Shown piece by piece: positions 16,955-56,681 of a DNA stretch of 64,000 nt (the first letter of the stretch is position 1; each line of letters starts with the position of its first letter). The stretch comes from Solicola gregarius (lineage in GTDB: Bacteria > Actinomycetota > Actinomycetes > Propionibacteriales > Nocardioidaceae). Below the pieces are notes generated by a model, which worked only from the letters and a program-made list of their open reading frames with translations, was not told the origin of the DNA and ran no database searches. Both the position numbers and the translations under genes were made by a program. The DNA lies in assembly GCF_025790165.1 (NCBI RefSeq), contig NZ_CP094970.1:4836001-4900000 (forward strand). Direction: 5' to 3'.

Positions 16955-17027
16955 GGCGTCGCCGTACGTTCGAGTGGCAACGCCACCACGATTCGATGGA
17001 ACGCCCCGGGCGGGGCGAGGAGGCCAC

Positions 17028-19555: not shown

Positions 19556-20075
19556 CGGTCTCGTCACCCCATGCCGCACGTGGATCGGTGTGCACGGCTG
19601 TGATGCCGCCGCGCCCGATCGGACTGTCCTCGAAGTCGCGGACTCCCCGAGCGGCTACATCGCTCGCGAGGCTGTCGCCGGCCCAATCGTCAGCGTGCTC
19701 ACGCAGTTGCGCGGGCAGCTCCCCGGCATGCTTCTCGACCAGGAAGGCGAGCGAGCGCCGCAGATATTCCAAGCTCGCGATGCTGGCGCGAGCGCTCTCG
19801 GCAGTGTCGATGAGCTGTCGCAGGACCTGGCTCACCTTCTCGGCGGGCTCGACGTCGGGCTGATACAGGTACTCGACGCTGACCGAGAGAGCCTCCGCGA
19901 TCGCGACCGCCTCGGTCAGCTTCAGCGGACGAGAGCCCTTCTCGATCTTGAGGATCGTCTGCTGTCGGAAGCTCTCGTCGACGTGGCTGGCGAGTTCGGT
20001 CTGCGACATGTTGACCGCCTGGCGCAGCTTTCGGATGTTAGCGCCTACCGCCTCGTTCAATCGCTCATCAGTCAT
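19548..20075 (-). CDS. XRE/Cro-CI-type repressor of the element
   Basis: 175 residues. Helix-turn-helix at about 10-65 (NIRKLRQAVNMSQTELASHV, then QQTILKIEKGSRPLKL), followed by a helical C-terminal part with no visible protease or LexA-like domain, so induction may depend on an antirepressor rather than self-cleavage. ATG at 20075 chosen because the HTH fold begins there; in-frame codons continue to 20111. Divergent from the excisionase over a 91-bp region that holds repeated TGGTGTG half-sites. It probably keeps the element silent. Confidence 0.85.
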   Translation of the reverse strand: MTDERLNEAVGANIRKLRQAVNMSQTELASHVDESFRQQTILKIEKGSRPLKLTEAVAIAEALSVSVEYLYQPDVEPAEKVSQVLRQLIDTAESARASIASLEYLRRSLAFLVEKHAGELPAQLREHADDWAGDSLASDVAARGVRDFEDSPIGRGGITAVHTDPRAAWGDETDE

Positions 20076-20085
20076 AGCCACAACA

Positions 20086-20153
20086 TACACCATCTCGGCG
20101 TGTTGGTTCACGCGTTGTTGGTGTGTACCGTTATGGTGTGCTTATCCACACCA
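20086..20153. promoter_or_regulatory. Genetic-switch operator region with four TGGTGTR half-sites
   Basis: Half-sites at 20086-20092 (minus), 20119-20125 (plus), 20134-20140 (plus) and 20147-20153 (minus). The last two form a perfect operator, TGGTGTG-CTTATC-CACACCA, which ends at the AGGAGG ribosome site of the excisionase gene, so a bound repressor would block it. The set lies between the repressor and excisionase genes, as expected of a lysogeny switch. Confidence 0.65.
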
Positions 20154-22270: not shown

Positions 22271-22479
22271 CCAAGCGCCTGACAATCGAACTCGAAGATG
22301 CCGACGACTTCGGCCAGACGATCCGCCTCGTCGGCGATAGCCGCATCGCCGTTGATGACATCGGCCTGATGGTCGACCTGATCGACAGCATCGGCAAGTG
22401 GCATCAGAACCACTGCGTGGCCGATGACGAGTGCTGCTGCCAGTTCCGACCCTTTACGCGAGTGGGTATGGACAGATGA
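22267..22479 (+). CDS. Small hypothetical element protein
   Basis: 70 residues, acidic, with Cys-Cys-Cys near the end (DDECCCQF). ATG overlaps the ATPase stop by 4 bp (ATGA) and its own stop overlaps the HNH start, so it is in the operon. No family recognised. Confidence 0.65.
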   Translation: MTKRLTIELEDADDFGQTIRLVGDSRIAVDDIGLMVDLIDSIGKWHQNHCVADDECCCQFRPFTRVGMDR

Positions 22480-22904
22480 AACCCTGCATCCGGTGCGGCG
22501 AGATCACCGACGCGACCCGCTGCCCTGACTGTGCTGGTCCGCTGCCATCGGAGGTACGACGCGGCTCGGCTCGCTCACGAGGCTATGACGCGCAGTGGGA
22601 CAAGCTCTCGGCTCGAGCACGCCGCATGTCTCCGGTCTGCGAGGACTGTGGCGCAGTCGATCGCCTGTCCGTCGACCACTCGCCTGAGGCGTGGAGGCGC
22701 AAGGCCGCCGGCAAGCCGATCCGCCTCCGTGACGTCGCCGTGCTGTGCCCGGTCTGCCAGATGGCTCGAGGATCGTCCCGTCCTGGCTCTGAGCGCGCTC
22801 GTGAGGCCCTGGGGACAGCACCCGCCGGAAAGGGTCAGGGACCGCGGGGCAAGGCGCAGGGGCAAATGAACTTGACCCTTCAACCTTCCGGGGAGGGCTC
22901 GTGA
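22476..22904 (+). CDS. HNH endonuclease-like protein upstream of terminase
   Basis: 142 residues. N-terminal zinc ribbon (CIRCGEI, CPDC) then an HNH-like domain: YDAQWDKLSARARRMSPVCEDCG, SVDHSPEAW and LCPVCQMARG. In HK97-type packaging systems an HNH protein next to TerL is needed for DNA cleavage. The last HNH position, usually His in the C-H-x-x-K/R motif, reads Gln here, so activity is uncertain. The stop overlaps the TerL GTG. Confidence 0.75.
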   Translation: MKPCIRCGEITDATRCPDCAGPLPSEVRRGSARSRGYDAQWDKLSARARRMSPVCEDCGAVDRLSVDHSPEAWRRKAAGKPIRLRDVAVLCPVCQMARGSSRPGSERAREALGTAPAGKGQGPRGKAQGQMNLTLQPSGEGS

Positions 22905-24373
22905 GGTCCGGGAACAAGGGCAAGCTCGAGAACGAGCTCGTGCCGCTGCCGTTCCGGCCTCGGGGCAGGGTCGAGTCTGAGCGGTTCCTGGCGTTCGCGG
23001 ACAAGTTCCTGAGGGTGCCGAAGGGCACCGGGGCGCGCGGGAAGCTCCACCTGCGCGACTGGCAGGTCGACATTGCTCGTGACGTGCTCGACTCCGGTGC
23101 CCGAACGGTCGGCGAGATGCTGCCGCGTGGGTCGGGTAAGACGACGCTCAACGCGGCGTTCGGCCTGTACTGCCTGTTCACGTGGGGTGAGGGTGCCAAC
23201 GTCGTCGTGGTCGCCGTGGACGAACGACAGGCCGGCCTCGCGTTCTCCGCTGCGCGCCGGATGGTCGAGCTGTCCGAGGACCTGTCGAGCCGCTGCCACG
23301 TCTACCGCGACAAGCTCGTACTGCCGCTGACCGACTCCACGTTCCAGGTGCTGCCCGCCACGCCCGCCGCGCTCGAGGGACTCGACTACGTGCTCGCGAT
23401 CGTGGACGAGGCCGGCGTCGTCTCCCGTGACATGTTCGAGGTCGTCCAGCTCGCGCAGGGCAAGCGGGAACGGTCGGTACTGGTCGCGATCGGCACCCCT
23501 GGCCCGAACCTCGACGACCAAGTGCTGTTGAGCCTGCGGGAGTACGCCGCGGAGCACCCCGAGGACCGCTCTCTCATCTTCCGCGAGTGGTCAGCCGCAG
23601 GGTTCGAGGATCACCCGGTGGATTGTCGCCACTGCTGGGACCTGAGCAACCCGGCGCTCGGAGACTTCCTCCACGAGGACGCCATGACGGCCCTACTTCC
23701 TCCCAAGACACGTGAGGCGACGTTCCGCCGTGCTCGGTTGTGTCAGCTACCCGTCGACGTCGACGGTTCGTTTCTGCCGCCGCATGTGTGGGATGGCCTG
23801 AGCACGGGTGAGTCGATCCCGGATGGCTCGCGCGTCGTCGTCAGCCTCGACGGATCGTTCAGCGACGACTCGACTGCGCTGGTGGTCGCGACGGTCTCCC
23901 CGACCCCGCATCTCGACGTGGTGAAGGTGTGGGAGAAGCCGGCCGATGATCCCGAGTGGCGCGTGCCGGTCCTCGAGGTCGAGCAGACCATCCGCGACGC
24001 CTGCCAGCGCTGGGACGTCGCCGAGGTCGTCGCCGACCCGTTCCGGTACAACCGGACCCTGCAAGTCCTCGAGGCCGAGCGTCTCCCGGTCGTGGAGTTC
24101 CCGTGGTCGCCGTCGCGGATCACCGCGGCAACGGGCGACTTCTACAACGCCGCCATCGAGGGACAGCTCACCCATTCCGGTGACGCGACGCTCGCCGCCC
24201 ACATCGCCGCCGCGGTCCTGCGCGAGGACACGCGCGGCTTCCGTATCGACAAGACCTCACGCTCCCGCCACGCCAAGAAGATCGACTGTGCGGCGGCTGC
24301 CCTGATGTGTCACAGCCGAGCCGTCTGGCTCGGCCGCAAGCCCCGCAAGCGGTCGCGATCGTTCGCGGCCTGA
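22901..24373 (+). CDS. terL: Terminase large subunit
   Basis: 490 residues. ATPase domain with Walker A PRGSGKTT at about 75-82 and Walker B YVLAIVDEAG near 165. The RNase-H-like nuclease has acidic motifs VVSLDGSFSDDST, AEVVADPFRY and KKIDCAAAALM. Pumps and cuts DNA into the prohead. GTG start overlaps the HNH stop. No clear small terminase gene is present; the HNH protein or one of the small proteins may cover recognition. Confidence 0.92.
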   Translation: MRSGNKGKLENELVPLPFRPRGRVESERFLAFADKFLRVPKGTGARGKLHLRDWQVDIARDVLDSGARTVGEMLPRGSGKTTLNAAFGLYCLFTWGEGANVVVVAVDERQAGLAFSAARRMVELSEDLSSRCHVYRDKLVLPLTDSTFQVLPATPAALEGLDYVLAIVDEAGVVSRDMFEVVQLAQGKRERSVLVAIGTPGPNLDDQVLLSLREYAAEHPEDRSLIFREWSAAGFEDHPVDCRHCWDLSNPALGDFLHEDAMTALLPPKTREATFRRARLCQLPVDVDGSFLPPHVWDGLSTGESIPDGSRVVVSLDGSFSDDSTALVVATVSPTPHLDVVKVWEKPADDPEWRVPVLEVEQTIRDACQRWDVAEVVADPFRYNRTLQVLEAERLPVVEFPWSPSRITAATGDFYNAAIEGQLTHSGDATLAAHIAAAVLREDTRGFRIDKTSRSRHAKKIDCAAAALMCHSRAVWLGRKPRKRSRSFAA

Positions 24374-24384
24374 ATGGAGAACCC

Positions 24385-25680
24385 ATGACCGACAAGTTGC
24401 TCGACACCCTGATCAAGAAGCTCGACGCGCCGCAGTCGACGTACGCCGGCCTGGACGCCTACTACGACGGATGCCAGCCGCTGAGCTTCCTCTCACCGGA
24501 GGCGAGGACCGCGCTCGGTGACCGTCTGCACCGCGTCTCGGTGAACGTCCCGCGCCTGCTTGTCGAGGCCGTCGCCGAACGTCTCCGCGTGGTCGGATTC
24601 GATGGGGCCGACGTCTGGCCGGCGTGGCTGGCGAACGACATGGACCAGCGCGCCGCAGTCGTACACCGCGAGGCCCTGTGCCTCGGAACGTCGTACGTGG
24701 CTGTGTGGGGCAACCTCGACGGCTCGGCGCTCATCTCGGCTGAGTCGGCGAAGCAGGTGACGGTCCTGCTCGACCCCGGGACTCGTCGTGTCGTCGCCGC
24801 GGTGAAGCGCTGGAACACCGATTCGACCACCGAGGCCACGCTCTGGGAACCGCACCAGGTGACCCGACTACGCGCCAACACCCGCGGAGCCACTACCGGC
24901 GGCCTGCGCGTCGTGGACACGCCACTGCCGAACCCGCTCGGCGTGGTACCGGTCGTGCCGTTCGTGAACGCCACACGGATGCTCGACGACGACGGCCGCT
25001 CGGAGATGGCCGACGTCCTGTCGCTGACCGATGCCGTTGTGAAACTGACGAGCGATCTCCTCGTGAGCTCCGAGTACACCGCTCGACCTAGGCGTTTCGC
25101 GACCGGAATTGAGCTTGAATCCGACGAGGAGACCGGCGAGGCCGTCAACCCCATCCCGGAGGGCGATCGGGCGATGGTCTCGGAGAATCACGAGGCCAAG
25201 TTCGGGCAGCTTCCAGGATCCGACCTCGTGGGATACGAGAACGCGATCGGCGTCATCATGCGCCAGATCAGTGCCGTGTCCGGCCTTCCCGAGCACATGC
25301 TCGGAATCGGTGGCGACAACCCGACCTCTGCCGATTCCATCCGCGCATCCGAGGCCGCACTCACCGCACGCGCCGAGGCCCGCCAGCAGGCGTTCGGGCG
25401 TAGCTGGGAGGAAGTCATGCGGCTGGCCGCCGCGGTCGCCGGCAAGGTCGCTCCCGGCTCCGTAGACGTCCGTGTCCGTTGGGCCGATGCCGCCACGCGT
25501 TCGGTTGCTCAGGAGGCCGACGCCGCAGTCAAGCTGGTGCAGGCCGGCGTCCTGCCCGCGTCGTACGCACTGCGCAAGCTCGGGTACTCCGAGGACGAGA
25601 TCACCGAGATTCGACAGGCCCGCCGGGTCGAGTCGGTCGACGCGCTCGGAGTCGACCTCGGTCAGGTCGTGACGTCGTGA
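24385..25680 (+). CDS. Portal protein (SPP1 gp6-like)
   Basis: 431 residues. Typical actinophage/SPP1-like portal features: LHRVSVNVPRLLVEAVAERL early, REALCLGTSYVAVW, and ISAVSGLPEHMLGIGGDNPTSADSIRASEAAL in the stem/wing region, ending in a basic/acidic tail. Forms the dodecameric DNA gate at one capsid vertex. ATG at 24385, 11 bp after terL. The stop overlaps the MuF-like gene. Confidence 0.9.
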   Translation: MTDKLLDTLIKKLDAPQSTYAGLDAYYDGCQPLSFLSPEARTALGDRLHRVSVNVPRLLVEAVAERLRVVGFDGADVWPAWLANDMDQRAAVVHREALCLGTSYVAVWGNLDGSALISAESAKQVTVLLDPGTRRVVAAVKRWNTDSTTEATLWEPHQVTRLRANTRGATTGGLRVVDTPLPNPLGVVPVVPFVNATRMLDDDGRSEMADVLSLTDAVVKLTSDLLVSSEYTARPRRFATGIELESDEETGEAVNPIPEGDRAMVSENHEAKFGQLPGSDLVGYENAIGVIMRQISAVSGLPEHMLGIGGDNPTSADSIRASEAALTARAEARQQAFGRSWEEVMRLAAAVAGKVAPGSVDVRVRWADAATRSVAQEADAAVKLVQAGVLPASYALRKLGYSEDEITEIRQARRVESVDALGVDLGQVVTS

Positions 25681-26270
25681 CGGCCCCGACCGAGCAGGTT
25701 CCGCCGAGTGCCGAGGGCGTGCTGTTCCAGCAGTACGCCGACAGCCTCGCGACGCTGGCCGAGCGCGCAGGCGTCGCACTGTTGGCGCAGTGGATCGCGG
25801 GCGCATTGTCAGACATGGCCTGGCAGACACAGCTTGCCCGTCTGTTCATCCGGGTCAACCGGGGCGGCACCGTCGTGGCCGACCTCTACGCCGCTCGACA
25901 GTTGCGCCTCATGGGCATTGAAGCCTCGCCGCTCGGCCTGAGCCTGCCCGACGACGTAGCCGAGGTCCAGCGCCTCACGAAGGCGGTCACGACGCTGAGC
26001 GAGGCCCTGGACGACCCGGAGTCCCTCGAGCCTCGCGTCGTACGGGTGGCCCGCTCCGAACCCGTCAACGCCATGCAGCAAGGCGTCGTACGCGCCTACG
26101 CCGAGCACGGCGTCGGAGGCTACCGACGTGGCCTCGACGCCGACCCCTGCGAGCTGTGTGTCTGGCTCGCGAAGAAGCACCTCGACCCGGCCGGGTACAT
26201 CTACGCGGCCGGCACCCCGTTCCACCGGCATCCCGGATGCCAGTGCGAACCCGTCCCGGTGACCGCATGA
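25677..26270 (+). CDS. MuF-like minor head protein
   Basis: 197 residues. The C-terminal motif ADPCELCVWLA followed by GTPFHRHPGCQCEPVPV is the Cys/His pattern of phage Mu gpF-like and related capsid proteins placed right after portals. Probably one or a few copies inside the prohead. GTG at 25677 overlaps the portal stop. No toxin domain is fused. Confidence 0.8.
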   Translation: MTAPTEQVPPSAEGVLFQQYADSLATLAERAGVALLAQWIAGALSDMAWQTQLARLFIRVNRGGTVVADLYAARQLRLMGIEASPLGLSLPDDVAEVQRLTKAVTTLSEALDDPESLEPRVVRVARSEPVNAMQQGVVRAYAEHGVGGYRRGLDADPCELCVWLAKKHLDPAGYIYAAGTPFHRHPGCQCEPVPVTA

Positions 26271-26467
26271 CCAGCCGGACCGACGACACCTGGACCGAGG
26301 CGTGGCGACGTCACGCCCGCGAGTACGACCCGATCCACACCATGACCGAGGACCTCGACGGGCAACCGCTCGGCGTGACCCGGCACCGGGTGCGCGGATT
26401 CATCATCTCGGCCGACCAGATGGCCGCGATCGCCAACGACGAAAGGAAACCCCATGATGACCACTGA
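26267..26467 (+). CDS. Small hypothetical head-module protein
   Basis: 66 residues, hydrophilic ([16 protein letters not shown] at the start). ATG overlaps the MuF-like stop by 4 bp, and its end overlaps the scaffold start by 14 bp. No family recognised; conserved spacing suggests a structural or assembly role. Confidence 0.65.
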
Positions 26468-26894
26468 CACCAGCACCGAGGCCACCGAAGCCACGGAGAC
26501 GCCGCAGGACTCGCCCGAGAGCGACGAGCAGACCACCGAGGAGACCGAGGGCCGCAAGGGCAACCCGGAGGCCGCACGCTACCGCGTGGAGCGCAACGAG
26601 GCCCGCGCCGAACGTGACAACCTGCTCGAGCGTGTGACCTCACTACAGGGTGCCGAGGTCGCCCGCCTCGCGACGGGACCCGGCAAGCTCCACGACGGAT
26701 CCGACCTCGCGTTCTCCGACGCCCTGCTCGACGAGGACGGCAACGTGGACCCCGAGAAGGTCGCCGCCGCGGTCGCCGAGCTCGTCGAGTCAAAGCCGCA
26801 CCTAGGCCAGGCCGCGTACGGCGGGGACGTCGGACTCGGCAACCGTGGAGGGTCCGACACGTCGACCACCTGGGCGAGCGTGATCCGCGGCTAG
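26454..26894 (+). CDS. Capsid scaffolding protein
   Basis: 146 residues: strongly acidic Glu/Thr-rich first 35, then a coiled coil ([20 protein letters not shown]), then a short C-terminal part, the usual build of actinophage scaffold proteins. It lies directly upstream of the capsid gene. Tandem ATGs at 26454 and 26457; GAAAGGAAA precedes them. Confidence 0.85.
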
Positions 26895-27057
26895 GTACCC
26901 CTGTCGGGTACCATTGGGGAGTCGGGACAGGTGCAGGCATCGTCCCGGCTCCCCTCGCTAGAGCGAGACCGTGTGAGGCGTTGACCGCCCGCGGCATCCG
27001 AAGTCCCCGAATCCCGGAGGACTCCTCGTGATCATCGTTAGCGGAGGAATCGCACTC
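26895..27057 (+). promoter_or_regulatory. Structured leader before the capsid gene
   Basis: Three consecutive stem-loops: GGTACCC/GGGTACC at 26894-26912; a 13-bp stem GGGGAGTCGGGAC (26916-26928) with GTCCCGGCTCCCC (26942-26954, one G-U pair); and CTCGCT/AGCGAG at 26954-26967. Two ribosome sites follow, GGAGGA before GTG 27028 and GGAGGA before ATG 27058. It is the only sizeable gap in the operon and precedes the most highly made protein, so it may stabilise mRNA or control translation. Confidence 0.5.
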
Positions 27058-27903
27058 ATGGCCATGTACACCACCACCGACGACGTAGGCGGCCTGCTCC
27101 CCGAGCAGATCGGCGCGCTCGTCGTCCAGCCAGTCATCGACGGATCGGTCGCCGCTCAGATCGGCACCGTCGTCACCATCGGGAGCACGACCTACCGAGT
27201 CCCGCTCGTCACCGCAGACCCGGCCGCCGCATGGGTAGCCGAGGGCGCGGAGATCAGCCCGGCAGACGCCACGATGGACGAGCTCGAGTGCACGCCGTCC
27301 AAGGTCGCCGGCCTGACGATCATCTCTCGTGAGCTTGCCGAGGACTCGAGCCCCGCGGCTCAGCAGGTCGTCGGCGACGGACTCGCCCGCGACATTGCCC
27401 GCAAGGTCGACGCAGCGTTCTTCGACGCCGACGGGGCGACCACCAACGGCCCCGGAGGTCTCGAGGCGCTCACCATGTCGACCGCGAACTACGCGGCCGA
27501 CGGTCCGGCGAACCTCGATTGGGCGGCCGAGGCGATCAGCAAGTCGGAGCAGAAGGGCGGCAGCCTGACGTCGTTCGTCACCGACCCCGCGACCGCGCTC
27601 GTGCTCGCGAAGGTCAAGGAAGGTACCGCGTCCAACGCGCCGCTGCTCGGTCGGGACGCGACCAGCGCCACGAGTCGTTCCGTGCTCGGCGTGCCGCTGC
27701 TCGTGTCCTCGTCTGTCACCGCCGGCACCATCTACGGCATCGACTCCCGGTTCGTGCAGGTCGTCGTCCGCGACAACACGAGGCTGGAAGTCGACAAGTC
27801 GGCGTACTTCTCGAGCGATCGCGTGGGCGTCAAGGCCACGATGCGCGTGGGCTTCGCGTTCACGCACCCGCTCGCGCTGGTCAAGGTCACCGAGAGCGCC
27901 TGA
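27058..27903 (+). CDS. Major capsid protein, HK97 fold
   Basis: 281 residues from ATG 27058 (GGAGGA 9 nt upstream). HK97-type features: a short N-arm (TTTDDVGGLLPEQIG), then PVIDGSVAAQIGTVV, YRVPLVTADPAAAWVAEGAEI, DELECTPSKVAGLTIISRELAEDS and the terminal VGVKATMRVGFAFTHPLALVKV. No protease gene is seen and a separate scaffold is present, so maturation probably does not need a fused delta domain. A GTG at 27028 in the same frame with its own ribosome site would add 10 residues. Confidence 0.93.
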   Translation: MAMYTTTDDVGGLLPEQIGALVVQPVIDGSVAAQIGTVVTIGSTTYRVPLVTADPAAAWVAEGAEISPADATMDELECTPSKVAGLTIISRELAEDSSPAAQQVVGDGLARDIARKVDAAFFDADGATTNGPGGLEALTMSTANYAADGPANLDWAAEAISKSEQKGGSLTSFVTDPATALVLAKVKEGTASNAPLLGRDATSATSRSVLGVPLLVSSSVTAGTIYGIDSRFVQVVVRDNTRLEVDKSAYFSSDRVGVKATMRVGFAFTHPLALVKVTESA

Positions 27904-27905: not shown

Positions 27906-28232
27906 ATGGCTGAGCCGACCGCTACCGGCGTCGTGGCGTTCCTGGGGAGACCTGGGGACGCCGCGACGCTGGCGCTCGCGACAGAGCACCTGCCGACCGT
28001 CCGGGCGATGGTGCGCGCATACACGCGTGGCAAGGGCTTCGACACGTCCACCGACGTACCGGCCGACGACCTCGCGGCCGTCATCGTCTCCTCGTGCGCG
28101 CGTCTCGTCGTCAATCCGACCGGCACCGTCGAGGAGTCCATCGGCGAGCTGACGATCCGCCACGGCACATTCTCAGGCTGGACCCTGCCCGAGCTCGCCG
28201 TACTCCACCAGTACCGCAAGCGGGCGCTATGA
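27906..28232 (+). CDS. Head-tail connector (adaptor) protein
   Basis: 108 residues, mostly helical, beginning with a leader and TEHLPTVRAMVRAYTRG, ending IRHGTFSGWTLPELAVLHQYRK: the pattern of gp6/gp15-like head-completion proteins that follow capsid genes in siphophages. ATG 2 bp after the capsid stop; stop overlaps the next ATG. Confidence 0.75.
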   Translation: MAEPTATGVVAFLGRPGDAATLALATEHLPTVRAMVRAYTRGKGFDTSTDVPADDLAAVIVSSCARLVVNPTGTVEESIGELTIRHGTFSGWTLPELAVLHQYRKRAL

Positions 28233-28615
28233 GGCCCAACGTCGAGCTGCTCCGCGGCCGGATCGGTGACCTGCTCACCGACACCGGCACGATCAGCTAC
28301 GACACCGGCGAGACCGAGTTCGACGAGGAGACAGGCGAGGAGACACCCATCTTCGCCGACCGGTACGTCGGCCCGATGCTCGTACGCCCGCAGTACGCCA
28401 CCCCGGCCGAGTTCGATGCCGGCGGCGCACAGTGGACCGTCAGCCGCTACGACGTCACGCTGCCCGCCGACACCGACGTGAGGATCGGCGACCGCGTGCA
28501 GGTCGAGTCCACGTTCGATACCAAGCTCGCCGACACGTTCGTCTACATCACCGACGTGCGGCTCGACCAGTGGCAGATCGCTCGATTCTGCATCGCCGAA
28601 AAGTCGAGCTCGTAG
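28229..28615 (+). CDS. Head-closure protein (DUF6093-like), last gene of the element
   Basis: 128 residues rich in beta strands (TGTISYDTGETEFDEETGEETPIFADRYVGPMLVRP, quoted here only as a type; key parts are YDVTLPADTD and RIGDRVQVES). Similar to DUF6093 head-closure/stopper proteins of actinophages that join the head to the tail. Overlaps the connector stop by 4 bp. In phages the next genes would be tail terminator and tail tube; here a terminator and attR follow, which fits a satellite that docks helper tails onto its own heads. Confidence 0.7.
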   Translation: MRPNVELLRGRIGDLLTDTGTISYDTGETEFDEETGEETPIFADRYVGPMLVRPQYATPAEFDAGGAQWTVSRYDVTLPADTDVRIGDRVQVESTFDTKLADTFVYITDVRLDQWQIARFCIAEKSSS

Positions 28616-28929: not shown

Positions 28930-28954
28930 GAGTTCGAGCTCTACTTCGACATCT
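28930..28954 (+). repeat. attR core: 25-bp repeat of the glnA 3' end
   Basis: Identical to 18420-18444 and followed by GA, so it still reads EFELYFDI-stop (TGA). This is presumably the original end of glnA; a strong terminator hairpin follows at 28965. Confidence 0.95.
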
Positions 28955-28964
28955 GATTCGTCTG

Positions 28965-29024
28965 CGTTTTGGAGAGTTTGGGTCGGTTTCAGCATGCGCA
29001 AACCGACCCAAACTCTCCAAAACG
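28965..29024. terminator. Long perfect hairpin, probable original glnA terminator
   Basis: Perfect 25-bp arms (28965-28989 and 29000-29024) with a 10-nt loop, 8 bp after the TGA that follows attR and 13 bp beyond the jetD stop on the other strand. It would end both jetD transcripts and, before integration, glnA. Confidence 0.85.
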
Positions 29025-29037: not shown

Positions 29038-30192
29038 TCAGATCCGCTGGTATGGCAGGCGCTCGGTCGCCCAGCCCCAGGCGATGCGCTCCTGCTCCAG
29101 CCGGACGGCGTTGCCGTAGCGGTCGGTCACCAGATCCGTGTAGACCGAAGCCTCGTCGGTCGCGAGGCGCCCAAGCCGAGCACTGGTCGGCCCGGTCTCG
29201 CTCCCCCACCGCTGACGATGCTCGAGGAGCGTCGCTCGGTCCATCAGGAACGACTCGGTCTGTGGAAGCCACGCCCGCAGCTGATCGAGGATGGCGAAAC
29301 CGTGGGTGTCGAGGTCACCCCAGTACCAAACCGGCACATCGGCCAGCCAGCGCAGCGCACCCACCCGGTCCACATCGAATCCCTTACCCCACAGCAACAC
29401 GCCATCGTTCGGAGGATCGAGACTGAGGAAGGTCACTTCGTTCTCGACGACCACGGCGCAACCTACGCCGACCTGGAGACCAGCGATCTCGTCGACCCGG
29501 AACGTCGCCTCGGTGACGCTGCGCGGCAGGCCGAGGAACCCCGGGCAGAAGCGCATCCGGACTGTGTCCGGCTTGGCGGCCAGGCCGAGGTCGCGAGCGA
29601 ACGCCGACGGTCTCCTGCCCGCCCCTAGGAGTTGGCCGAGCACTGGCCGATGCCGCTCGACGAACTTGGTGTCCACGCCCGGCGCATCGATCGTACGCAA
29701 GTACAGCCCCGAGCCTCGTGCGGCCGCGAGCCACCGGTACGCAGCGAGCAAACTCTCCCAGTCGTCGGTTGCGTCCAGCGACTTGAGCGGGTGATCGCCG
29801 ACCCATGCTCGTACGACCGGGAGGTCGCTCACCAGCTCGAGGATTTCGACGTACGAGGCGACCCTTCGCTTCGCGCCGAGAAGTGCCCACGCCTGGTCGT
29901 AGCTGGTCAGGCGGGCGCGGGTTGGGAACCGATTGCGCCCGATCTCACGACCCCCGATCACGCTCCACTCGATCTCGAAGCATTCGCCCTGACGGCTCGC
30001 GTCCTCGAGAGCGGCGATCCAATCCCGCACCGCGCCGACATCCACCCCGATCTCGCTCACTTTGGGTCCACGGATTGGGAAGTCTTGCGCGGGGAAGTCC
30101 TCGCCGGCGGCCAGTGCCCGCAACAACGTCTGGTCGTCCCAGCGACGCTGCACCTTGGCCCTGACGTCGGCCGGCGTGGTCCAACGCGTCAC
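29038..30192 (-). CDS. jetD: Wadjet nuclease subunit JetD (DUF3322/DUF2220)
   Basis: 384 residues. N-terminal DUF3322 part (TTPADVRAKVQRRWDD onward) and C-terminal DUF2220 Toprim-like part with the metal-binding pattern VWYWGDLDTHGFAILDQLR. In type I Wadjet, JetD is the topoisomerase-VI-like nuclease that cuts closed circular plasmids after the SMC complex has extruded them. GTG at 30192 overlaps the jetC stop by 4 bp. Full length and intact. Last gene of the operon, ended by the hairpin at 28965-29024. Confidence 0.93.
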   Translation of the reverse strand: MTRWTTPADVRAKVQRRWDDQTLLRALAAGEDFPAQDFPIRGPKVSEIGVDVGAVRDWIAALEDASRQGECFEIEWSVIGGREIGRNRFPTRARLTSYDQAWALLGAKRRVASYVEILELVSDLPVVRAWVGDHPLKSLDATDDWESLLAAYRWLAAARGSGLYLRTIDAPGVDTKFVERHRPVLGQLLGAGRRPSAFARDLGLAAKPDTVRMRFCPGFLGLPRSVTEATFRVDEIAGLQVGVGCAVVVENEVTFLSLDPPNDGVLLWGKGFDVDRVGALRWLADVPVWYWGDLDTHGFAILDQLRAWLPQTESFLMDRATLLEHRQRWGSETGPTSARLGRLATDEASVYTDLVTDRYGNAVRLEQERIAWGWATERLPYQRI

Positions 30193-33100
30193 TCGGCACG
30201 CTCCACCCGGCGTCGTTCGTGAAACTCCTCGATCGTCAGCGTCTGCAGCCGCGAGTTGTTTCCGGACGGGTTGTCGACGAACCCGATCGCCCGGACGTAC
30301 GGCTCGATCACATGCACCTTCTGCAGAGGTGTGATCACGAGCAACTGCAGCCCCAGCTTGGCGAACAGGTCGAGGGCGTAACGCGTCGACTGATCCGACC
30401 CTCGCCCGAACGCCTCGTCGATCACCGCGAATCGGAAGTCGCGCGACTCCTTGACACCCCAATCCAGGCCGAACTGGTACGCCAGTGAGGCGGCGAGGAT
30501 GGTGTAAGCGAGCTTCTCCTTCTGCCCGCCGGACTTGCCGTCCGAATCACGGTAGTGCTCATGCTCCTCATCGGTCTCCCGGTCGCGCTCGGACGCGGAG
30601 AAGGTGAACCAGTTGCGCACGTCGGTGACCTTCGCGGTCCACGCCTTGTCGGAGTCGGTGTGGCCCTCTCTCCCGCGGAATCGCTCGATGATCCGCTGCA
30701 CGTCGAGGAACCGCTGTTCGGAATAGCGATCATCCTGCGGCGTGAGGGTGTCGCCGGTCGCGTCGCGCAGGTCGGTCTGGAACTGCCGGACGTCGGTGTT
30801 GGGCGTCGCCTCGGGTTCGAGCCGGATGATCCGACCTGGGCTGTAGTCGATGGCGGCGAGTGCGTCGTTGATGGTGGCGACGCGGTCATGGATGACGTCG
30901 CGCTGTCGCCGCAACCAGTTGTTGAATCCGGCGAGCTCCTTGATCGTCTCCGTGTTGAGCTGCCGCTTGAAGTCCTCCTCGAACCTCGGCAGGTCATCGT
31001 CGCGCACGCGGTCGTGGAAGGCCCGGAACTCGGCCCTCGCTCCGATGTCGGTGTCCATCTCCGTGGTGGACTCGGGCCACCGGCGTCGAACCTCGGCCAT
31101 GTGCCGGAGTGTGTTGGTGGCTTGAGCGTTCATCTGCTGGGTGAGGCGCTCGATCCGTCCGCCCAGCTCCGCGGTCAGCCCGCTCTCCGCCGCGGCACAG
31201 TCGTCGGAACGGGTCGGATGATCACTACCGAGTCGGTTGGTGAGAGCGTCGTACGACGCTCGCGTGCCGGTCAGGTACGCGCGGTCAGTCGCGGCGAGAA
31301 GCGATCGGTCCTGCTCCCGGGCCCCCTCGGCACGATCGATGCGTTCGCCCACGCGCGCGATGTCCTGCTGGGCCTGCTTCTCGTGGCCCTCGATTTCGCG
31401 GATCGCGGTGCCGACCTCGGTCATGCGCCGTTCGATCTCGGCCAGTTCCGACGAGCCGGCGAGCCGACGCTCGCGCTCCGTACGTGCCAAGGCCGCACGC
31501 TGCTCGGCCTCTTCAACGTCGAGCTCAGTCCAGGATGAGTACTCCGCGAGGCGTTCCAACGCTGTCTCTCGACTGCGGATCGCGTCACGTTCGGCGTCCA
31601 CCTTCTCGGCGGCCCGGTCGACCTCGGCCAACTGGGACTCCAACTCCGCGACATGCGACTCGAGTGCCTCGATCTTGCGTTCGTTGGCCCAGCCGAGTAG
31701 CCAATGGCGTGGGTCGTCCGCGCGGTACCGGTCGTCCTTCTCGTGCCGGTCTCCGGAACGTACCTGCCCCTCGCGGGTGACCGCACGCATCGCTTCGCGG
31801 AACTCGTCCAGCGTCTCGGCGCAGCGATGCCCCGCGCGGCGGTTGAGCTGCGATCGGAGGTAGTCCTCGAACCGGCCGCCAGCCACTTCGAGCGTCTCGG
31901 CGAGGATCAGACCGCCCTCCTCGCCGTGGGGCTGGAGCCCGACACTGCGGTGCGGCACTCGCTCGTACACCAGCCGCATCCCGAGGTGCCGCTCGTTGAC
32001 CCACTGTGACACGGCTTGATAGTGCTGCTGATCGACGAGCAGCGACTGGGCGAATCCGCGGAGTACGCGTTCCGCGGCGCCGCGCCACTGTTCGTACCCC
32101 TCGGCGACGTCGATGAGCTCGCCGGCGAACGGCAGATCGTCGACGTCGAGTCCGAGGTCGCGGCAGAGTGCCTCGCGTACCGCCAGCTGGTTCCGACCGA
32201 GGTTGCTGCGTCGTCCGCGCAGGCTCTCGATGTCCTCCTTGGTCTCCTGCGTCGCCTCACGTATCCGTGATCGCTCGCTGAGTCGCTCGGCGACGGCGTG
32301 ATCCAGCCGCTTGCGTTCCTCGGCGATCCCGGCCAGCTCAGCCGTTGCCTGCTCGCCGACACGGACGAACCCGTCGGCATCGGTGACCTCGGCGAGGCCG
32401 GCGTCGGCGAGGTGGCCGGCATAGCGTGCGCGCCGTCCGGCTCGCGCCTCGGCTTCCTCGCGCGCGATCCGCTCCAGCCGTTCGAGCTCGCCGATCCGGT
32501 CACCACCGGCGGCAGCGCGTTCGCCGATCAGTCCGTCGCGCTCGCTCACCAGCGTTACTCGCCGCGCGGCCAACTCCTCGGCTTCGCGGTTGGCGCGAGC
32601 CGACTCGGCCTTGTGCGCCTCCAACTCCTCGTCGAGGAGCCGCAGCCGGAGCTCGGCGATGTAGAGGCGTACGGCCTCGCGTTGCCGGTCGAGTCCGGCG
32701 CGTTGTTCGAGCGCCGTGTCGTACTTGTCGGCCGCGTCGACCAGCGGGATCAGCGCGGCGAGCTGCTCGCGTGCCCGGGTCACTGCCTCGTGGGCCTTCG
32801 TGAGGTCGTCGAAGTGACCCACGATGTCACGCACCCGCGCGGAGGAGTCTGCGGGCTCGAGCATGTGGTCGCGCACGAACTCGTTCAGGTTGCCGACGGA
32901 CTTCATCGACACGGTCTGGCCGAACAGCTCGAGGGCCTGGTCAGACCTGATGCCGAGCAACCGCCGGAGTCGCCGGGAGTACTCCGGGTAGTTGTTGCTG
33001 ATTTCGCAGCCCGCCCCGCGCAGCCGCTTACGGAGCTGATTGAGGTCGGTGCCGAAGTCGGTGAAGTCCGGATCGATCGCCAGCGACTTGATGGCGGTGA

Positions 33101-33563
33101 CGAAGAACCGGTCTGGTTGGCCCTTGTCGCGCTGCTTCTGGTGGAAGACCTGAGCGAGGGTGACCTCCTCGTCGTATCCCGCGTTGACGAAGACGCCGAG
33201 GACGACGGAGTACGACCGATGGTCACGCAACCCGATCGGCCGGGAGGTGCCTGTGGCCTCGTTGCGCTCGGACTTGAAGTGGCCCTCAACGTAGCTGCGC
33301 AGGGTGCGCTCTTTCGACTCGGCACCGGCGGCCTTGTTGTACGTGATCTTGTTGGCCGGCAGGAGCAGCGTCGTGACGGCATCGACCAGGGTGGACTTGC
33401 CGCTGCCGATGTCGCCGGTGAGCAGGGAGGTTTCTCCGTCGGGCGTCAGGCGCCAGACCCGCTGGTCGAACGTGCCCCAGTTGTAGACCTCGATCCGCTG
33501 CAACCGGTAGCCCGCTCGGGAATCATCGGCGAGCCCGGCAGCAGAGAAGAGCCCGTCACTCAT
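30189..33563 (-). CDS. jetC: Wadjet SMC-like ATPase JetC
   Basis: 1124 residues. Walker A LLTGDIGSGKST at about 48-58 following RIEVYNWGTFD; long charged coiled-coil regions in the middle (about 290-480 and 640-780) around a hinge; C-terminal signature SGGQKEKLAYT and Walker B FRFAVIDEAFGRGSD. MukB/SbcC-like loop-extruding motor of the Wadjet complex. ATG at 33563 overlaps the end of jetB by 8 bp. Intact throughout. Confidence 0.95.
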   Translation of the reverse strand: MSDGLFSAAGLADDSRAGYRLQRIEVYNWGTFDQRVWRLTPDGETSLLTGDIGSGKSTLVDAVTTLLLPANKITYNKAAGAESKERTLRSYVEGHFKSERNEATGTSRPIGLRDHRSYSVVLGVFVNAGYDEEVTLAQVFHQKQRDKGQPDRFFVTAIKSLAIDPDFTDFGTDLNQLRKRLRGAGCEISNNYPEYSRRLRRLLGIRSDQALELFGQTVSMKSVGNLNEFVRDHMLEPADSSARVRDIVGHFDDLTKAHEAVTRAREQLAALIPLVDAADKYDTALEQRAGLDRQREAVRLYIAELRLRLLDEELEAHKAESARANREAEELAARRVTLVSERDGLIGERAAAGGDRIGELERLERIAREEAEARAGRRARYAGHLADAGLAEVTDADGFVRVGEQATAELAGIAEERKRLDHAVAERLSERSRIREATQETKEDIESLRGRRSNLGRNQLAVREALCRDLGLDVDDLPFAGELIDVAEGYEQWRGAAERVLRGFAQSLLVDQQHYQAVSQWVNERHLGMRLVYERVPHRSVGLQPHGEEGGLILAETLEVAGGRFEDYLRSQLNRRAGHRCAETLDEFREAMRAVTREGQVRSGDRHEKDDRYRADDPRHWLLGWANERKIEALESHVAELESQLAEVDRAAEKVDAERDAIRSRETALERLAEYSSWTELDVEEAEQRAALARTERERRLAGSSELAEIERRMTEVGTAIREIEGHEKQAQQDIARVGERIDRAEGAREQDRSLLAATDRAYLTGTRASYDALTNRLGSDHPTRSDDCAAAESGLTAELGGRIERLTQQMNAQATNTLRHMAEVRRRWPESTTEMDTDIGARAEFRAFHDRVRDDDLPRFEEDFKRQLNTETIKELAGFNNWLRRQRDVIHDRVATINDALAAIDYSPGRIIRLEPEATPNTDVRQFQTDLRDATGDTLTPQDDRYSEQRFLDVQRIIERFRGREGHTDSDKAWTAKVTDVRNWFTFSASERDRETDEEHEHYRDSDGKSGGQKEKLAYTILAASLAYQFGLDWGVKESRDFRFAVIDEAFGRGSDQSTRYALDLFAKLGLQLLVITPLQKVHVIEPYVRAIGFVDNPSGNNSRLQTLTIEEFHERRRVERAE

Positions 33564-34146
33564 CGGCATCGCCCCGCAGTCCCGCGGCGTACTCCTCGAG
33601 CTTGGCAGCGTAGTCGCCCAGCGTCTCGGCATCGACGTACGCCTTCAGCACCCGCCGGACCTCCCACTGGTCACTGCTCCCCTGCAAGGGGCGAAGGAAG
33701 CCTATATCTGCCACCTGCTTGATGGTCGTGTCGACCTTGTCGATCATCCGTGCCTCGTGGGAGGACTCGGGCAGGAACGTACGCAACTCGTCGACGATCT
33801 GGTCGCGACTCAGGACCAGCTTGCCGTCGATTGCCACGGTGTCGAACTCCACGAGCCGCTTACGTAGCAGCACCAGCAAGAGGCTCTGCGAATGGGTGAG
33901 AGCACGGCGGCGTACCAGCCGTGGCAAAGGCTCCTCACCATCGTCCTCGGGCTGGGACTTGAGGTAGGCGTAGCCTGCCGTGTCGTCGACGACGACATCG
34001 ACGCCGAGAGTGGCGAAGTGATCACGTACGGCGGCGCCGTGCCGGTCGAGTGTCTCCCACCCCGACTCGTGGGTCTCGCGATAGACGACACCACGCATCA
34101 GCTCGATGATGGTGGTGGCCACGGCATGTTCCTCGGGCGTTCTCAT
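33556..34146 (-). CDS. jetB: Wadjet subunit JetB (DUF4194, kleisin-associated)
   Basis: 196 residues, DUF4194: MRTPEEHAVATTIIELMRGVVYRE at the start (a type note only), then GYAYLKSQPEDD, LPRLVRRRALTHSQSLLLVLLRKRL and a winged-helix-like DKVDTTIKQVADIGFL. Counterpart of MukE. ATG overlaps the jetA stop by 4 bp. Confidence 0.92.
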   Translation of the reverse strand: MRTPEEHAVATTIIELMRGVVYRETHESGWETLDRHGAAVRDHFATLGVDVVVDDTAGYAYLKSQPEDDGEEPLPRLVRRRALTHSQSLLLVLLRKRLVEFDTVAIDGKLVLSRDQIVDELRTFLPESSHEARMIDKVDTTIKQVADIGFLRPLQGSSDQWEVRRVLKAYVDAETLGDYAAKLEEYAAGLRGDADE

Positions 34147-35573
34147 CGGCGGCTCACTCTCACGCCGGGCAGTCGGGCACGACGGGCGTGACCGTCGATA
34201 TCGACGTAGTCGATGATGCTCTCGTCGGTCTCGTCCATCTCCACGTCCAGGTCGTCCTCGGCGAGCGAGAGATAGCCGAGGATCTCGGCGGCACCGTACT
34301 CGATCGGATAGAGATCGATGATCTCGTTGAGGCTGGTGGCGCTGGCCGCCGGGAGAACGGCCCGTAGGTTGTCGGCCAGCCGAGCACGATCGACGAAGTG
34401 CTGCCCGAAGAGCGCCGTCATGTCGAGGTCCTCCTCCGCCGACGGCGTCAGCAGACTGTCGACCTCTGCGGCGGGCTGCACGCTGTAGAGCGGACGCTCC
34501 ATCGGCAGGCTGATCGGGATGCCGGGGAGATCGATCATCAAGCCGTCGGCGGGAGGCTCGTCCTGTATTTCCAGCGCGGTGGCCTCGATCTGGCGTACCA
34601 GGTCGACGACGCGGCGGTTCTCCACCCACACCTGGTCGTCGAGGAACCGGCGGAACTGCTCGGAGATCTTGCGGACCGTGCCTTGGGTACGCTCGGCAGC
34701 CAACGACCAGTCGTGATGGATCGTGCCGAGCCGTCGGTCGGTCGTCACCGCATCGAGCTGCTGTACGCGTCGCAGCAGGTCGCTCAACTCGTCCTGTCGG
34801 CGCTCGGAGAGTAGGAAATCGTAGAACGCCTGGAAGGTCGTGCCCTGGTCGGAGCTGCCGATGTCGGAGCGGCTCGCCACCAGCTCTGCGAGCAAGTCGC
34901 CCTTGGAGCCCTCCCACCCGGCGATCCTCTCGCGGGCGTTTCGGTCGAGCTCACGGAACTTCTCTCCGACCTCGCGGAAGTCGCTCAGCAACTCCCGGGC
35001 GGTGCTGGCGAACTGCTGGTACCGGTCGCGTACGGCACCGTCGCCCAGCACGGCGACCTGCCCGGACTCGACATCCGCGATCTCTCGGTCGAGGGCATCG
35101 CGCTGCTCGCGTAGCCGCTCCAGTCGGGCCTCGGGGTCGCCGTCGGTGCCGTGGACGATCTGCCGAAGGAGCTCGACGACCGTGTGCAGCCGGGACTCGG
35201 TGCCGACGAACTCGCGTTCGGCCAGGCCGGTGACCCAGGCGTACGCCTTCTCGAACGCCGACGTGGCCTCGTAATGCACCTCATCGGAATGGTCGGGGTA
35301 GAAGCTGCGCAGCCACCTGGCGTCGGGGGCAGCCCAGTCTTCGAGGTACTCCTCGGGCCGCTTGGGAAACCGATCTCCGTCGCCATGGTCGAGGTTGCGA
35401 GCATAGAGCTCGTCGTCCAGAGCATTGGCGAGCTCGGAGACTCCAGTGGCGCCGTGGTTGTCCTCCACGTACCACCGGCCCAGGAATGCGAGCACGAGCG
35501 AGGCATTGCCGGCGCGGAGCAACTTCCATGCCGGATGCTTCTCGCGCAGCGCATCGATCTCGGCGTACTCCAT
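34143..35573 (-). CDS. jetA: Wadjet kleisin-like subunit JetA (DUF3375)
   Basis: 476 residues, DUF3375. Starts IDALREKHPAWKLLRAGNASLVLAFL (shown in part by LREKHPAWKLLR) and contains a coiled coil around 150-230; ends with an acidic tail (EDDLDVEMDETDESI). MukF/kleisin counterpart bridging the JetC heads. First gene of jetABCD; the 160 bp upstream should hold the promoter, though none is obvious. Confidence 0.93.
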   Translation of the reverse strand: MEYAEIDALREKHPAWKLLRAGNASLVLAFLGRWYVEDNHGATGVSELANALDDELYARNLDHGDGDRFPKRPEEYLEDWAAPDARWLRSFYPDHSDEVHYEATSAFEKAYAWVTGLAEREFVGTESRLHTVVELLRQIVHGTDGDPEARLERLREQRDALDREIADVESGQVAVLGDGAVRDRYQQFASTARELLSDFREVGEKFRELDRNARERIAGWEGSKGDLLAELVASRSDIGSSDQGTTFQAFYDFLLSERRQDELSDLLRRVQQLDAVTTDRRLGTIHHDWSLAAERTQGTVRKISEQFRRFLDDQVWVENRRVVDLVRQIEATALEIQDEPPADGLMIDLPGIPISLPMERPLYSVQPAAEVDSLLTPSAEEDLDMTALFGQHFVDRARLADNLRAVLPAASATSLNEIIDLYPIEYGAAEILGYLSLAEDDLDVEMDETDESIIDYVDIDGHARRARLPGVRVSRR

Positions 35574-40029: not shown

Positions 40030-41160
40030 TCAGCCCGCTGTCAAGGCGGCGATATGCGCGTCGAGCGCTGCCACGAACCGATCGTCGCGTCGCAATGTGC
40101 TGGCCTTGAGCCGTTTGGTGAAGCCACTGGTCGCTCCCAGGCTCAGGGGCTCTGCGGTGTAGCGATCGAGCAGGTTCATCAATGACACGCCCGATCGCTT
40201 GTCGACTGGGCGCTCACCGATCGACCACGCCTCGCGATTCCCGGCAACCGACGACGCGGCGAACGGCCAACGCCGACCCGGCGTCAACGCGCGACGATCG
40301 ACATCGACGGGATAGCCCGGCGCCACCAGCCGACTACCTAACCATTTCGCAACCGGCACCGTCACGGCATTGCCGACCAGTTTCCATCGCTCCCCGAGCG
40401 TGCCGGATCCGTCCGTCCAACCTGCCCTGAATCCCTGCAGCCGCTCCCCTGCGGCGATGCTCGGCCGACAAATCGCACGCCCATCCTCGGCAGAGGGAAT
40501 CCACACGGCCGGAGGCGATGCGATTCCGAGCTTCGATCCGCCCTTCAGCGTCGGGACGACTCCCTCTCCCCACCCGATGCCCCGATTGCCCTCGGTCCAG
40601 TAGAAGCCGTACGCGGTGTGCCGCTTCTGGGCACTGGACCCGCCAGTCTCATCGGCGAACAGCACCGTACGCGGATCCTGCGTCTTCGACGCAACGAGGA
40701 ACACTCGGCGGCGGCGCTGACGTACGCCGAAGTGGCGGGAGTCGACCGTTCGGTACGCCCAGTTCCAGCCGTTCTCATCGAGCCATTCAGTGACGTGCCG
40801 GATAGGTGATCCGCCTTGGAGCGTGAGCATGTTCGGTACGTTCTCGAGCACAAGCCACGTCGGTGGAGTGTCGGCAACTAGCCGGAAGACCTCACGGATC
40901 AAGCCAGACTCATCGCCACTGATACCAGCCGTCCGGCCAACCTGGCTGAGGTCGGTACAAGGAAAACCTGCGGCGACGATGTCGGCCGTCGGCAATGAGC
41001 GGAGCTCACGAATGTCCCCGACAACCGGCGCATCGAACCGTCTACGAAGTGTGTCGGCGGCAGGTTCCCAGTACTCGCAAAGCAACTCCGTCTCGATCCC
41101 GGCGTCGCACAATCCGAGCTCGAGCCCGCCGATGCCGGAGAAGAGCCCCACTGACCTCAC
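40030..41160 (-). CDS. drmMII: C5-cytosine DNA methyltransferase (DISARM class 2-type, DrmMII-like)
   Basis: 376 residues from GTG 41160 (GAGGA 7 nt upstream; protein begins VRSVGLFSGIGGLELGL). Motif I FSGIGG, motif IV with the catalytic Cys about residue 68 (AAGFPCTDLSQ), motif VI WLVLENVPN, motif VIII FGVRQRRRRVFLV, motif X near the end (ERWKLVGNAVTVPVAKW). Marks host DNA, so the operon spares self. In characterised class 2 DISARM this enzyme methylates CCWGG; the Vsr partner fits such a site. Target not provable here. Confidence 0.9.
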   Translation of the reverse strand: MRSVGLFSGIGGLELGLCDAGIETELLCEYWEPAADTLRRRFDAPVVGDIRELRSLPTADIVAAGFPCTDLSQVGRTAGISGDESGLIREVFRLVADTPPTWLVLENVPNMLTLQGGSPIRHVTEWLDENGWNWAYRTVDSRHFGVRQRRRRVFLVASKTQDPRTVLFADETGGSSAQKRHTAYGFYWTEGNRGIGWGEGVVPTLKGGSKLGIASPPAVWIPSAEDGRAICRPSIAAGERLQGFRAGWTDGSGTLGERWKLVGNAVTVPVAKWLGSRLVAPGYPVDVDRRALTPGRRWPFAASSVAGNREAWSIGERPVDKRSGVSLMNLLDRYTAEPLSLGATSGFTKRLKASTLRRDDRFVAALDAHIAALTAG

Positions 41161-41209
41161 TCGAGCATCCTCGAGCGAAGTGGTCGAGTAGTCAAGTCGG
41201 CGCTCCGGC

Positions 41210-41449
41210 TCATCCGATACTGGGAAACGCCGCTCGGATGATCTCCAGGGGCTGACGCGCGTTCGACTCGTCCAGTTGCAGGGACTGGCTGCTCTTCGGA
41301 CCACTACGGCGGTCGTCAGACCCGAACGTCGTGAGGTGTAGGAAGCGTGAGCCATCGACCCCGGTCACCACCTGATGGAAGCAATCCACTTCGGTCGGAT
41401 GCACTCGGACGTGCTGGGTGCCTTCTTCGAAGCTTCTCAGTCGTGCCAC
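41210..41449 (-). CDS. Small unknown protein in the DISARM-like operon
   Basis: 79 residues: an Arg-rich start (MARLRSFEEGTQHVRVHPTEVD), a beta-rich middle (CFHQVV, RFLHLTTFGSDDR) and a C-terminal helix (NARQPLEIIRAAFPSIG). It lies between drmC (21 bp upstream) and the cytosine methylase (49 bp downstream) on the same strand. Looks like a compact folded domain rather than chance coding. I recall similar short proteins near C5-methylases but cannot confirm. Function unknown. Confidence 0.75.
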   Translation of the reverse strand: MARLRSFEEGTQHVRVHPTEVDCFHQVVTGVDGSRFLHLTTFGSDDRRSGPKSSQSLQLDESNARQPLEIIRAAFPSIG

Positions 41450-41470
41450 GGGTCTCCTCCATCCTATCGT

Positions 41471-42178
41471 TCAGTTCAGGTCGATGAGTACGCCATGGCG
41501 ATGCAACAGGTCGAGTCGTTCCCGCAGGCCCGTGGCAATGGTGGCGTCGACGCTCAGCAAGCCACATTCGAGGCTGCGCTCGGCAGCGGCCAAAGAGAAG
41601 TTCGCGCTTGTCACCAACGCTTCGCGATCATCAACGGCGATCAGCTTCGCGTGTTGGATGGCGTACGCGTCATCCTCAGGCTCATCGAGAGTCCACACCC
41701 GAGCGCCGTCCAGCATCCCGGCGATCATCTCCGCGGTTTCAAGGCGCTGCGCGGTGTCTACGACGATCGTCACAGCGACACCGCGGGTTCGCGCGTTCTT
41801 CAACGCCACGAGATGCGGTGACCCCCAGCCGGCCGAGTAGGTCGCGGCATAGACCACGCCCTCAGCTCGGTTGATCAGGTCGAGTGCGGCCTTCGTAGTG
41901 CGACCTTCGGCTCCAGGTACGTCGCGCGGGTTGGTCCAGACGAGATCGGGACGTGGCACACGCGGTACCGCCGCGATACCTTCCAGCGCGGCAACGCCCC
42001 GCTCCACACTCGTGTCAGATCCGATCAGCTCACGCAGCAGTGTCCGCACCACGGCCTGATTGACCCCGTACGCCCGCTTGGCAGCGATGTTCGGCCGGCG
42101 GCTCTGCCGCAGGCTGGCGGCTACCCTGCTCGCCTCCTCCGGCGTAAGCAACGCTCCGAGACGCGCGATGGCAGACAT
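41471..42178 (-). CDS. drmC: DISARM protein DrmC (phospholipase D-like)
   Basis: 235 residues. One PLD/HKD motif: QHAKLIAVDDREALVTSANFS (H-x-K, then Asp and Asn), preceded by the family pattern VVYAATYSAGW. Dimerises in relatives to form one active site. In published DISARM work DrmC is dispensable for some phages. Starts 1 bp after the drmB stop. Confidence 0.9.
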   Translation of the reverse strand: MSAIARLGALLTPEEASRVAASLRQSRRPNIAAKRAYGVNQAVVRTLLRELIGSDTSVERGVAALEGIAAVPRVPRPDLVWTNPRDVPGAEGRTTKAALDLINRAEGVVYAATYSAGWGSPHLVALKNARTRGVAVTIVVDTAQRLETAEMIAGMLDGARVWTLDEPEDDAYAIQHAKLIAVDDREALVTSANFSLAAAERSLECGLLSVDATIATGLRERLDLLHRHGVLIDLN

Positions 42179-42179
42179 G

Positions 42180-47902: not shown

Positions 47903-47986
47903 GGTTCCCCAATCTGTCACAGCGTCCCGACATTCGATGGCCGCCAACCCACGTAGTAGATCAGGACACGAATGGACCAGCATCCG

Positions 47987-56414: not shown

Positions 56415-56681
56415 GTGCTCGACAATCAGTGAACCCAATAGCCGACTTGTTGTACGCGGAGTCACGACTTTGACCTCGACGCAGGACTGCGCTCAGTGAG
56501 AATTGGCCTCGGAATGAGACGTTCGGGCCGTGGCGGAGGGAGCGGATCTACAGAGGTGACCGACCACCCGTCAGGTTCGAGGTCCGGCGAAGCGTCGTGA
56601 CACGGAGGCAACATCTTCTGGGGGTGTCGGACCAAGAAGAGATCCAACATGCCCGCGCATCCGAGAGCCACATCCCAGGAG
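56415..56681. other. Gap upstream of the DISARM-like operon
   Basis: About 270 bp between the membrane-protein gene and drmD, both on the minus strand. No gene is seen; it presumably carries the operon promoter. No clear -10/-35 pair or palindromic operator was recognised. Confidence 0.4.

Follow-up and report, generated by a model that had tools for sequence, protein, structure and literature searches.

The window analysed here (G000:C1:4836001-4900000; a stretch of 64,000 nucleotides from the genome of Solicola gregarius, which is 4.92 Mb in a single contig) carries the Wadjet type I operon jetABCD directly beside a small phage satellite, which is integrated in the 3' end of the glutamine synthetase gene glnA. 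We hold it very probable that the satellite and the Wadjet operon are two independent acquisitions lying side by side at one landing site, with no functional link between them. The Wadjet operon would stand at the head of an acquired island that also includes DISARM, Fic, and other genes and lies between the native glnA end and an MFS gene. The satellite would have entered the last glnA codons by site-specific recombination, with the coding sequence kept and a new stop codon supplied, and this insertion would have separated glnA from the operon by the length of the element. What is left of the native spacer, with its terminator, would be the 83-bp gap, and the island was presumably in place before the satellite. 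The locus may thus be an example of a landing site, the glnA end, that brings a satellite beside a defence island, and its satellite belongs to a family that shares genomes with Wadjet type I at normal or raised rates.

The Wadjet operon and the neighbouring satellite

The operon lies on the minus strand at 29038-35573 in the gene order ABCD, namely jetA (DUF3375; 34143..35573), jetB (MukE-like; 33556..34146), jetC (SMC ATPase; 30189..33563), and jetD (Toprim-like nuclease; 29038..30192), with overlaps of 4, 8, and 4 bp. The top PADLOC matches all belonged to type I model groups (JetA1, 5e-183; JetB1, 1e-89; JetC1, E=0; JetD1, 5e-124), and the Pfam families on the four proteins (DUF3375, DUF4194, AAA_29/SbcC_Walker_B, and DUF3322/JetD_C) agreed with PADLOC. 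The JetC segments that we take to be Walker A (residue 50), the signature (SGGQ, residue 1011), and Walker B (VIDEA, residue 1045 onward) are all intact. JetD E250 aligns with the position of the E248A substitution of JetD in PDB 8q72, and the DxD residues D293 and D295 are kept. The relatives of known structure were the JetA, JetB, and JetC chains of 8dk1-8dk3 and 8as8 and, for JetD, MksG (8b7f) and JetD (7til, 8q72). Compared with the solved Wadjet type I systems (8dk1-8dk3, 8as8, 8q72), the window operon is the same in gene order, in the four families, and in the ATPase and Toprim-like nuclease residues; it is distant in sequence but does not differ in kind. The nearest jet operons belong to other genera (JetC identity, 49-64%). 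Judged from their sequence, the jetABCD genes form a Wadjet type I operon of the ordinary kind, apparently intact and with a putative nuclease activity.

The satellite is bounded by two copies of a 25-bp sequence (GAGTTCGAGCTCTACTTCGACATCT; 25/25 identical), of which attL (18420..18444, plus strand) forms the end of glnA (17022..18446, plus strand; Pfam Gln-synt_C, 3e-136; the region used as query) and attR (28930..28954, plus strand) lies 10,510 bp further on. Elsewhere in the window, no further copy turned up with up to three mismatches, nor did any of 100 shuffles yield one. The last glnA codons are the attachment site itself; the present stop codon, TAG at 18444-18446, is contributed by the element side of attL. 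The TGA at 28954-28956, at the edge of attR, corresponds to the native type of glnA stop, as the same-genus glnA likewise ends ACATCTGA.

The first genes of the element are on the minus strand and encode a tyrosine integrase (18473..19579; PF00589, 3e-17; phrog_1, 6e-60), of a clade whose relatives lie beside glnA, and a helix-turn-helix repressor-like regulator (19548..20111; PF01381, 4e-11; phrog_2439). On the plus strand follow an AAA_25 primase/helicase-like replication protein (20630..22270; PF13481, 9e-36; phrog_906, 7e-37), an HNH endonuclease (22431..22904; phrog_144, 2.5e-11; no Pfam match above the curated cut-off), the terminase large subunit (22901..24373; phrog_9, 1e-77), a portal protein (24307..25680; phrog_104, 2e-111; PF05133), a probable head maturation protease (25479..26270; weak match to phrog_193, 4e-6; no Pfam match), a scaffold-like protein (26454..26894; weak match to phrog_4708, 2e-6), an HK97-type major capsid protein (27028..27903; PF05065, 9e-34; phrog_10, 5e-41), and a DUF6093 protein (28094..28615; PF19586, 4e-16) that, from its position, is probably involved in head completion. 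Tail and lysis genes had no match among the open reading frames scanned. A small element of 10,510 bp bounded by an integrase and 25-bp att copies, with its own capsid, portal, protease (the weak match above), large terminase, and HNH genes, comes close to the gene list given for capsid-forming phage-inducible chromosomal islands (cf-PICIs) in a paper on Streptomyces satellites (PMC10690885). By its gene set, the element is thus classified as a capsid-forming phage satellite.

Between attR (end, 28954) and jetD (end, 29038), 83 bp remain, and the satellite and the operon are separated by attR, so that the jet genes lie outside the att sites. The description in the first-pass annotation, namely a complete and intact jetABCD with overlaps of 4-8 bp, ending 83 bp from the attR of a satellite of about 10.5 kb, agreed with our measurements in every number checked. 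The same annotation made no mention of a perfect inverted repeat at 28965..29024, with arms of 25 bp and a loop of 10 nt, between the convergent glnA side and jetD. An inverted repeat unrelated in sequence is seen by eye at the same place after glnA in the same-genus genome compared (G001), and we regard the repeat in the window as a probable native two-way terminator. When it is read in this way, the spacer would belong to the glnA flank, not to the satellite.

According to a review (PMC10586767), relatives of the window operon cleave small closed circular DNA, and linear DNA and circles above approximately 100 kb escape Wadjet. By analogy with the published work on these relatives, the complex would load on small closed DNA circles and extrude them, and JetD would cut. 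The excised 10.5-kb circle would be of a cuttable size, as circles up to approximately 100 kb are in range, whereas the integrated copy is chromosomal DNA and no target. There is therefore no paradox in a satellite beside Wadjet, and the conflict between the two implied by the first-pass annotation appears weak; the sequence itself gives no sign of one. Among the titles and abstracts listed, none dealt with the action of Wadjet on satellites or on excised elements; passing remarks within articles are possible.

The end of glnA as a landing site

The integrase clade (match at E<=1e-60) was found in 19 of 391 genomes of the order, and glnA lay within the 1.5-kb flank at nine of the 19 integrase loci (the window's own included); wider stretches added glnA at 2 kb (G222) and 12 kb (G191). 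In G014, glnA is 1.2 kb from the integrase in the same arrangement, which recurs in Blastococcus massiliensis (integrase identity, 66%) and Kocuria marina (48%); each of these two species also has a related capsid gene. Twelve glnA sites, excluding the window's own and those of G199 and G191, were checked for a further glnA-end copy, and 10 of them have one (21-23 of 24 bases) at a distance of 9-36 kb; none was found in G014, for which 7.7 kb only was examined. The cargo differs among sites: genes for a major head protein and for a tape measure protein occur in the 9-kb glnA element of G125, type III restriction genes and an SNF2/HKD helicase in the 29-kb glnA element of G224, and in G346, where the element end was not found, a phage tape measure protein is encoded 28 kb downstream of glnA. 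On this sequence evidence, one integrase clade uses the 3' end of glnA repeatedly for attachment across several actinobacterial families, and the cargo ranges from satellites to phage-like and restriction genes. The loci recorded as users of the glnA-end site are L072, L078, L093, L124, L125, L127, L128, L131-L135, L144-L151, L154-L162, and L259. The defence hotspots described for E. coli (PMC10121019) are alike in that conserved flanks enclose varying mobile elements and defence systems; unlike those, the site here is the glnA end in actinobacteria.

The same-genus genome G001 has a glnA protein 96% identical to that of the window, and its site is unoccupied. Neither JetD nor the capsid protein had a match in that genome, and no jet match was found in the 20 kb around its glnA; jetABCD as backbone beside glnA in an empty-site strain, the observation that the first-pass annotation had named as fatal to its idea, was not seen there. 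With blastn, collinearity with G001 restarts at window position 60556, in the MFS gene (60549..61730, minus strand; blastn, Pfam) that forms the right edge. The glnA-MFS interval holds 7.8 kb of other genes in G001 (DUF998, AMP-binding enzyme, short-chain dehydrogenase, TetR regulator, and SLFN-type helicase) versus 42 kb in the window (the satellite, Wadjet, a HepT/MntA remnant, a split GDPD gene, ADP-ribosylglycohydrolase, Vsr, cytosine methyltransferase, DISARM, FAD oxidase, and Fic protein). Because the gene content differs between these two genomes, we treat the glnA-MFS stretch as a variable interval on the basis of this one pair. The GC content is 0.59-0.69 at 29-57 kb, 0.67-0.75 left of glnA, and 0.65-0.66 in the right flank (60-64 kb); since the right flank is as low as the island, the composition says little about the origin of the island.

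Linkage and co-occurrence of satellite and Wadjet

The same genome has a second satellite (G000:C1, approximately 3453704-3464221; L059, L163), located in tRNA-Lys(CTT) with a different integrase. The distance between the att copies of this second element is 10,517 bp, versus 10,510 bp in the window element, and the DNA of the two elements is 86-91% identical from the regulator to beyond the head genes, apart from one short stretch at 76%. A third copy of the tRNA end is present at 3449666, 4 kb beyond this sister satellite, where another tandem element or a remnant may exist.

Physical linkage was examined from both sides. An alignment scan with the capsid protein, with one genome per species, gave 30 actinobacterial loci (satellites and prophages unsorted; some flanks cut by contig ends), and none of the 30 had a jet gene in flanks of up to 10 kb. 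With a tyrosine integrase profile built from 34 integrases, none of 25 JetA loci (8-20 kb each) had a match, versus one of 20 control stretches; glnA had no match near these 25 loci either. Among the loci examined, only this window has a satellite adjoining Wadjet type I.

These data bear on a composite origin, in which the satellite and Wadjet would have arrived together at glnA and the distal att site or a second integrase would have been lost later. Neither of the two is present at this site in G001, and glnA-site elements can hold defence genes, as the type III restriction genes and the SNF2/HKD helicase of the G224 element indicate; both points are in its favour. However, a perfect attR separates the satellite from the jet genes, and the best att-like match in 29041-60560 was 17/25, not above chance (16-18 in eight shuffles). 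No tyrosine integrase of the glnA-site clade was detected in the island beyond attR, where the family scan covered part of the open reading frames of 29-60 kb. In addition, jet genes had no match at the 12 other glnA-site elements (7.7-40 kb examined each), at the 30 related capsid loci, or in the 20-kb stretch of the sister satellite. No 12-mer occurs both in the left flank and at the right end. We consider a composite origin very improbable. The first-pass annotation had offered neighbouring cargo at the same site as one of its explanations; the part concerning a shared hotspot is borne out by the recurrent use of the glnA end and by the interval that differs between two genomes of the genus, and the part in which both were brought in together is not. 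The co-occurrence of satellite and jet genes at glnA in relatives, which it had suggested looking for, was found neither at the 12 other glnA sites nor in G001.

Several observations weigh against independent acquisition at a landing site. Only one same-genus genome was available for comparison, and the jet genes could be ancestral to the genus and lost in G001. At eight of the 19 integrase loci, the stretch examined contains no glnA; seven of these eight are the most distant matches (37-43%). G346 has no second glnA-end copy in 37 kb. At least 16 genomes of genus g7 have a distant Wadjet lineage downstream of and convergent with glnA, on the contig that carries glnA and at a distance of 7.5-195 kb (in one genome, JetA is as near as 7.5 kb), and this synteny might point to a long history of the site with Wadjet. 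JetA is also more frequent in genomes of the order with a related capsid gene (E<=1e-15; 13 of 21) than overall (135 of 391).

The g7 arrangement is the argument for a long-standing neighbourhood of jetABCD and glnA in this bacterial family, in which the satellite would merely have landed between the two. Against this, JetC of the g7 Wadjet lineage is only 23-28% identical to that of the window in the stretches read, and the arrangement varies within the genus, G302, G189, G179, and G193 being among the genomes that differ. No glnA was seen in the stretches examined around the operons closest to that of the window (JetC, 49-64%), and G001 has no jet match at glnA. Among 118 relatives, the close jet carriers G013, G020, G021, and G086 do not have jet beside glnA, and G010 had no glnA match. 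An old neighbourhood is accordingly given very little weight. The g7 loci examined were L256, L257, L260, L262, L264, L266, and L269.

The co-occurrence data bear on a further alternative, in which the satellite would have evolved to live with Wadjet, either by replicating in a resistant form or by means of an inhibitor, and its place next to the operon would reflect this bond. In the order-wide searches, up to six capsid and up to four JetA candidates were scored per genome; JetA was found in 135 of the 391 genomes (134 over the cut-off) and in five of the six with a close capsid gene. The family-stratified odds ratio for capsid-JetA co-occurrence was 3.9 (p=0.003; strata counted by hand: f1, 172; f2, 173; f3, 38; f4, 8), a value that ignores relatedness and assembly quality. 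Furthermore, both satellites of S. gregarius (10,510 and 10,517 bp) reside with the single JetA match of the genome, which lies in an intact operon. On the other hand, the order-level excess is uncorrected as stated, and at the phylum level JetA was present in 12 of 29 genomes with a related capsid gene (the genome of L104 was left out of the 30), about the 42% of actinobacteria reported to carry any Wadjet (PMC10482375); the satellite family is thus not excluded by Wadjet. In the 12 other genomes of the order that have both, the capsid gene and JetA are separated by at least 320 kb or belong to different contigs, and residence together while integrated would need no resistance. No inhibitor candidate emerged, and none was looked for. 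We regard adaptation of this satellite to Wadjet as very unlikely. In a broader form, actinobacterial capsid-forming satellites as a group would be adapted to Wadjet hosts, for example by leaving only as replicating or packaged linear DNA, and Wadjet would clear competing plasmids with the satellite unharmed. If so, Wadjet hosts would be the preferred home of such satellites, as the order-level excess hints; we give this broader form hardly any credence. Independent acquisition remains our preferred reading: on the genomes compared, Wadjet does not appear to exclude satellites of this family, adjacency does not appear to be a habit, and a functional link between satellite and Wadjet is not supported.

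Relatives of the satellite and other genes of the island

The window satellite shares with cf-PICIs the integrase, replication protein, HNH, large terminase, portal, probable protease, and major capsid protein. The small terminase of the cf-PICI gene set had no match among the open reading frames scanned, which included part of the small ones, and the likeness is one of gene set, not of traced descent. Among 50,697 phage records searched with the capsid protein, 14 matched, and 12 of the 14 were Mycolicibacterium aichiense phages (identity, 36%, and genome size, 10.87-11.04 kb, in the 10 of these 12 that were listed). These 10.9-11.0-kb phages (WillG and others) are the nearest capsid relatives among phage records, with a genome size close to that of the satellite. 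WillG, the one record examined, is unlike the window satellite in having a serine integrase, a different gene order, and an annotated tape measure protein. No literature on satellites of M. aichiense was found. MulchRoom and MiniFlayer, satellites of Streptomyces phages, are like the window element in being actinobacterial with their own capsid and packaging genes; they are described as having terminal repeats and no primases (PMC10690885), whereas the window element has a primase/helicase-like gene.

As for the rest of the island, PADLOC assigned a DISARM system (DrmC, DrmB, DrmA, DrmMI, and DrmD) with a cytosine methyltransferase to 40030..56465 on the minus strand, in the same island as Wadjet; the DISARM region including the cytosine methyltransferase and a Vsr-like gene extends over 39585-56465. 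Beside jetA are a HepT-like gene (35735-35962; last half of the family only) and an MntA-like nucleotidyltransferase gene (36089-36562), perhaps a degraded toxin-antitoxin pair. The GDPD gene at 37127-38093 is split, the ends of the profile matching separate open reading frames, and is a probable pseudogene. The Fic gene of the window is 24 kb from jetA; a Fic-family gene was also present near Wadjet at four of the 25 JetA loci (L224, L226, L229, and L065), in three of them beside jetA.

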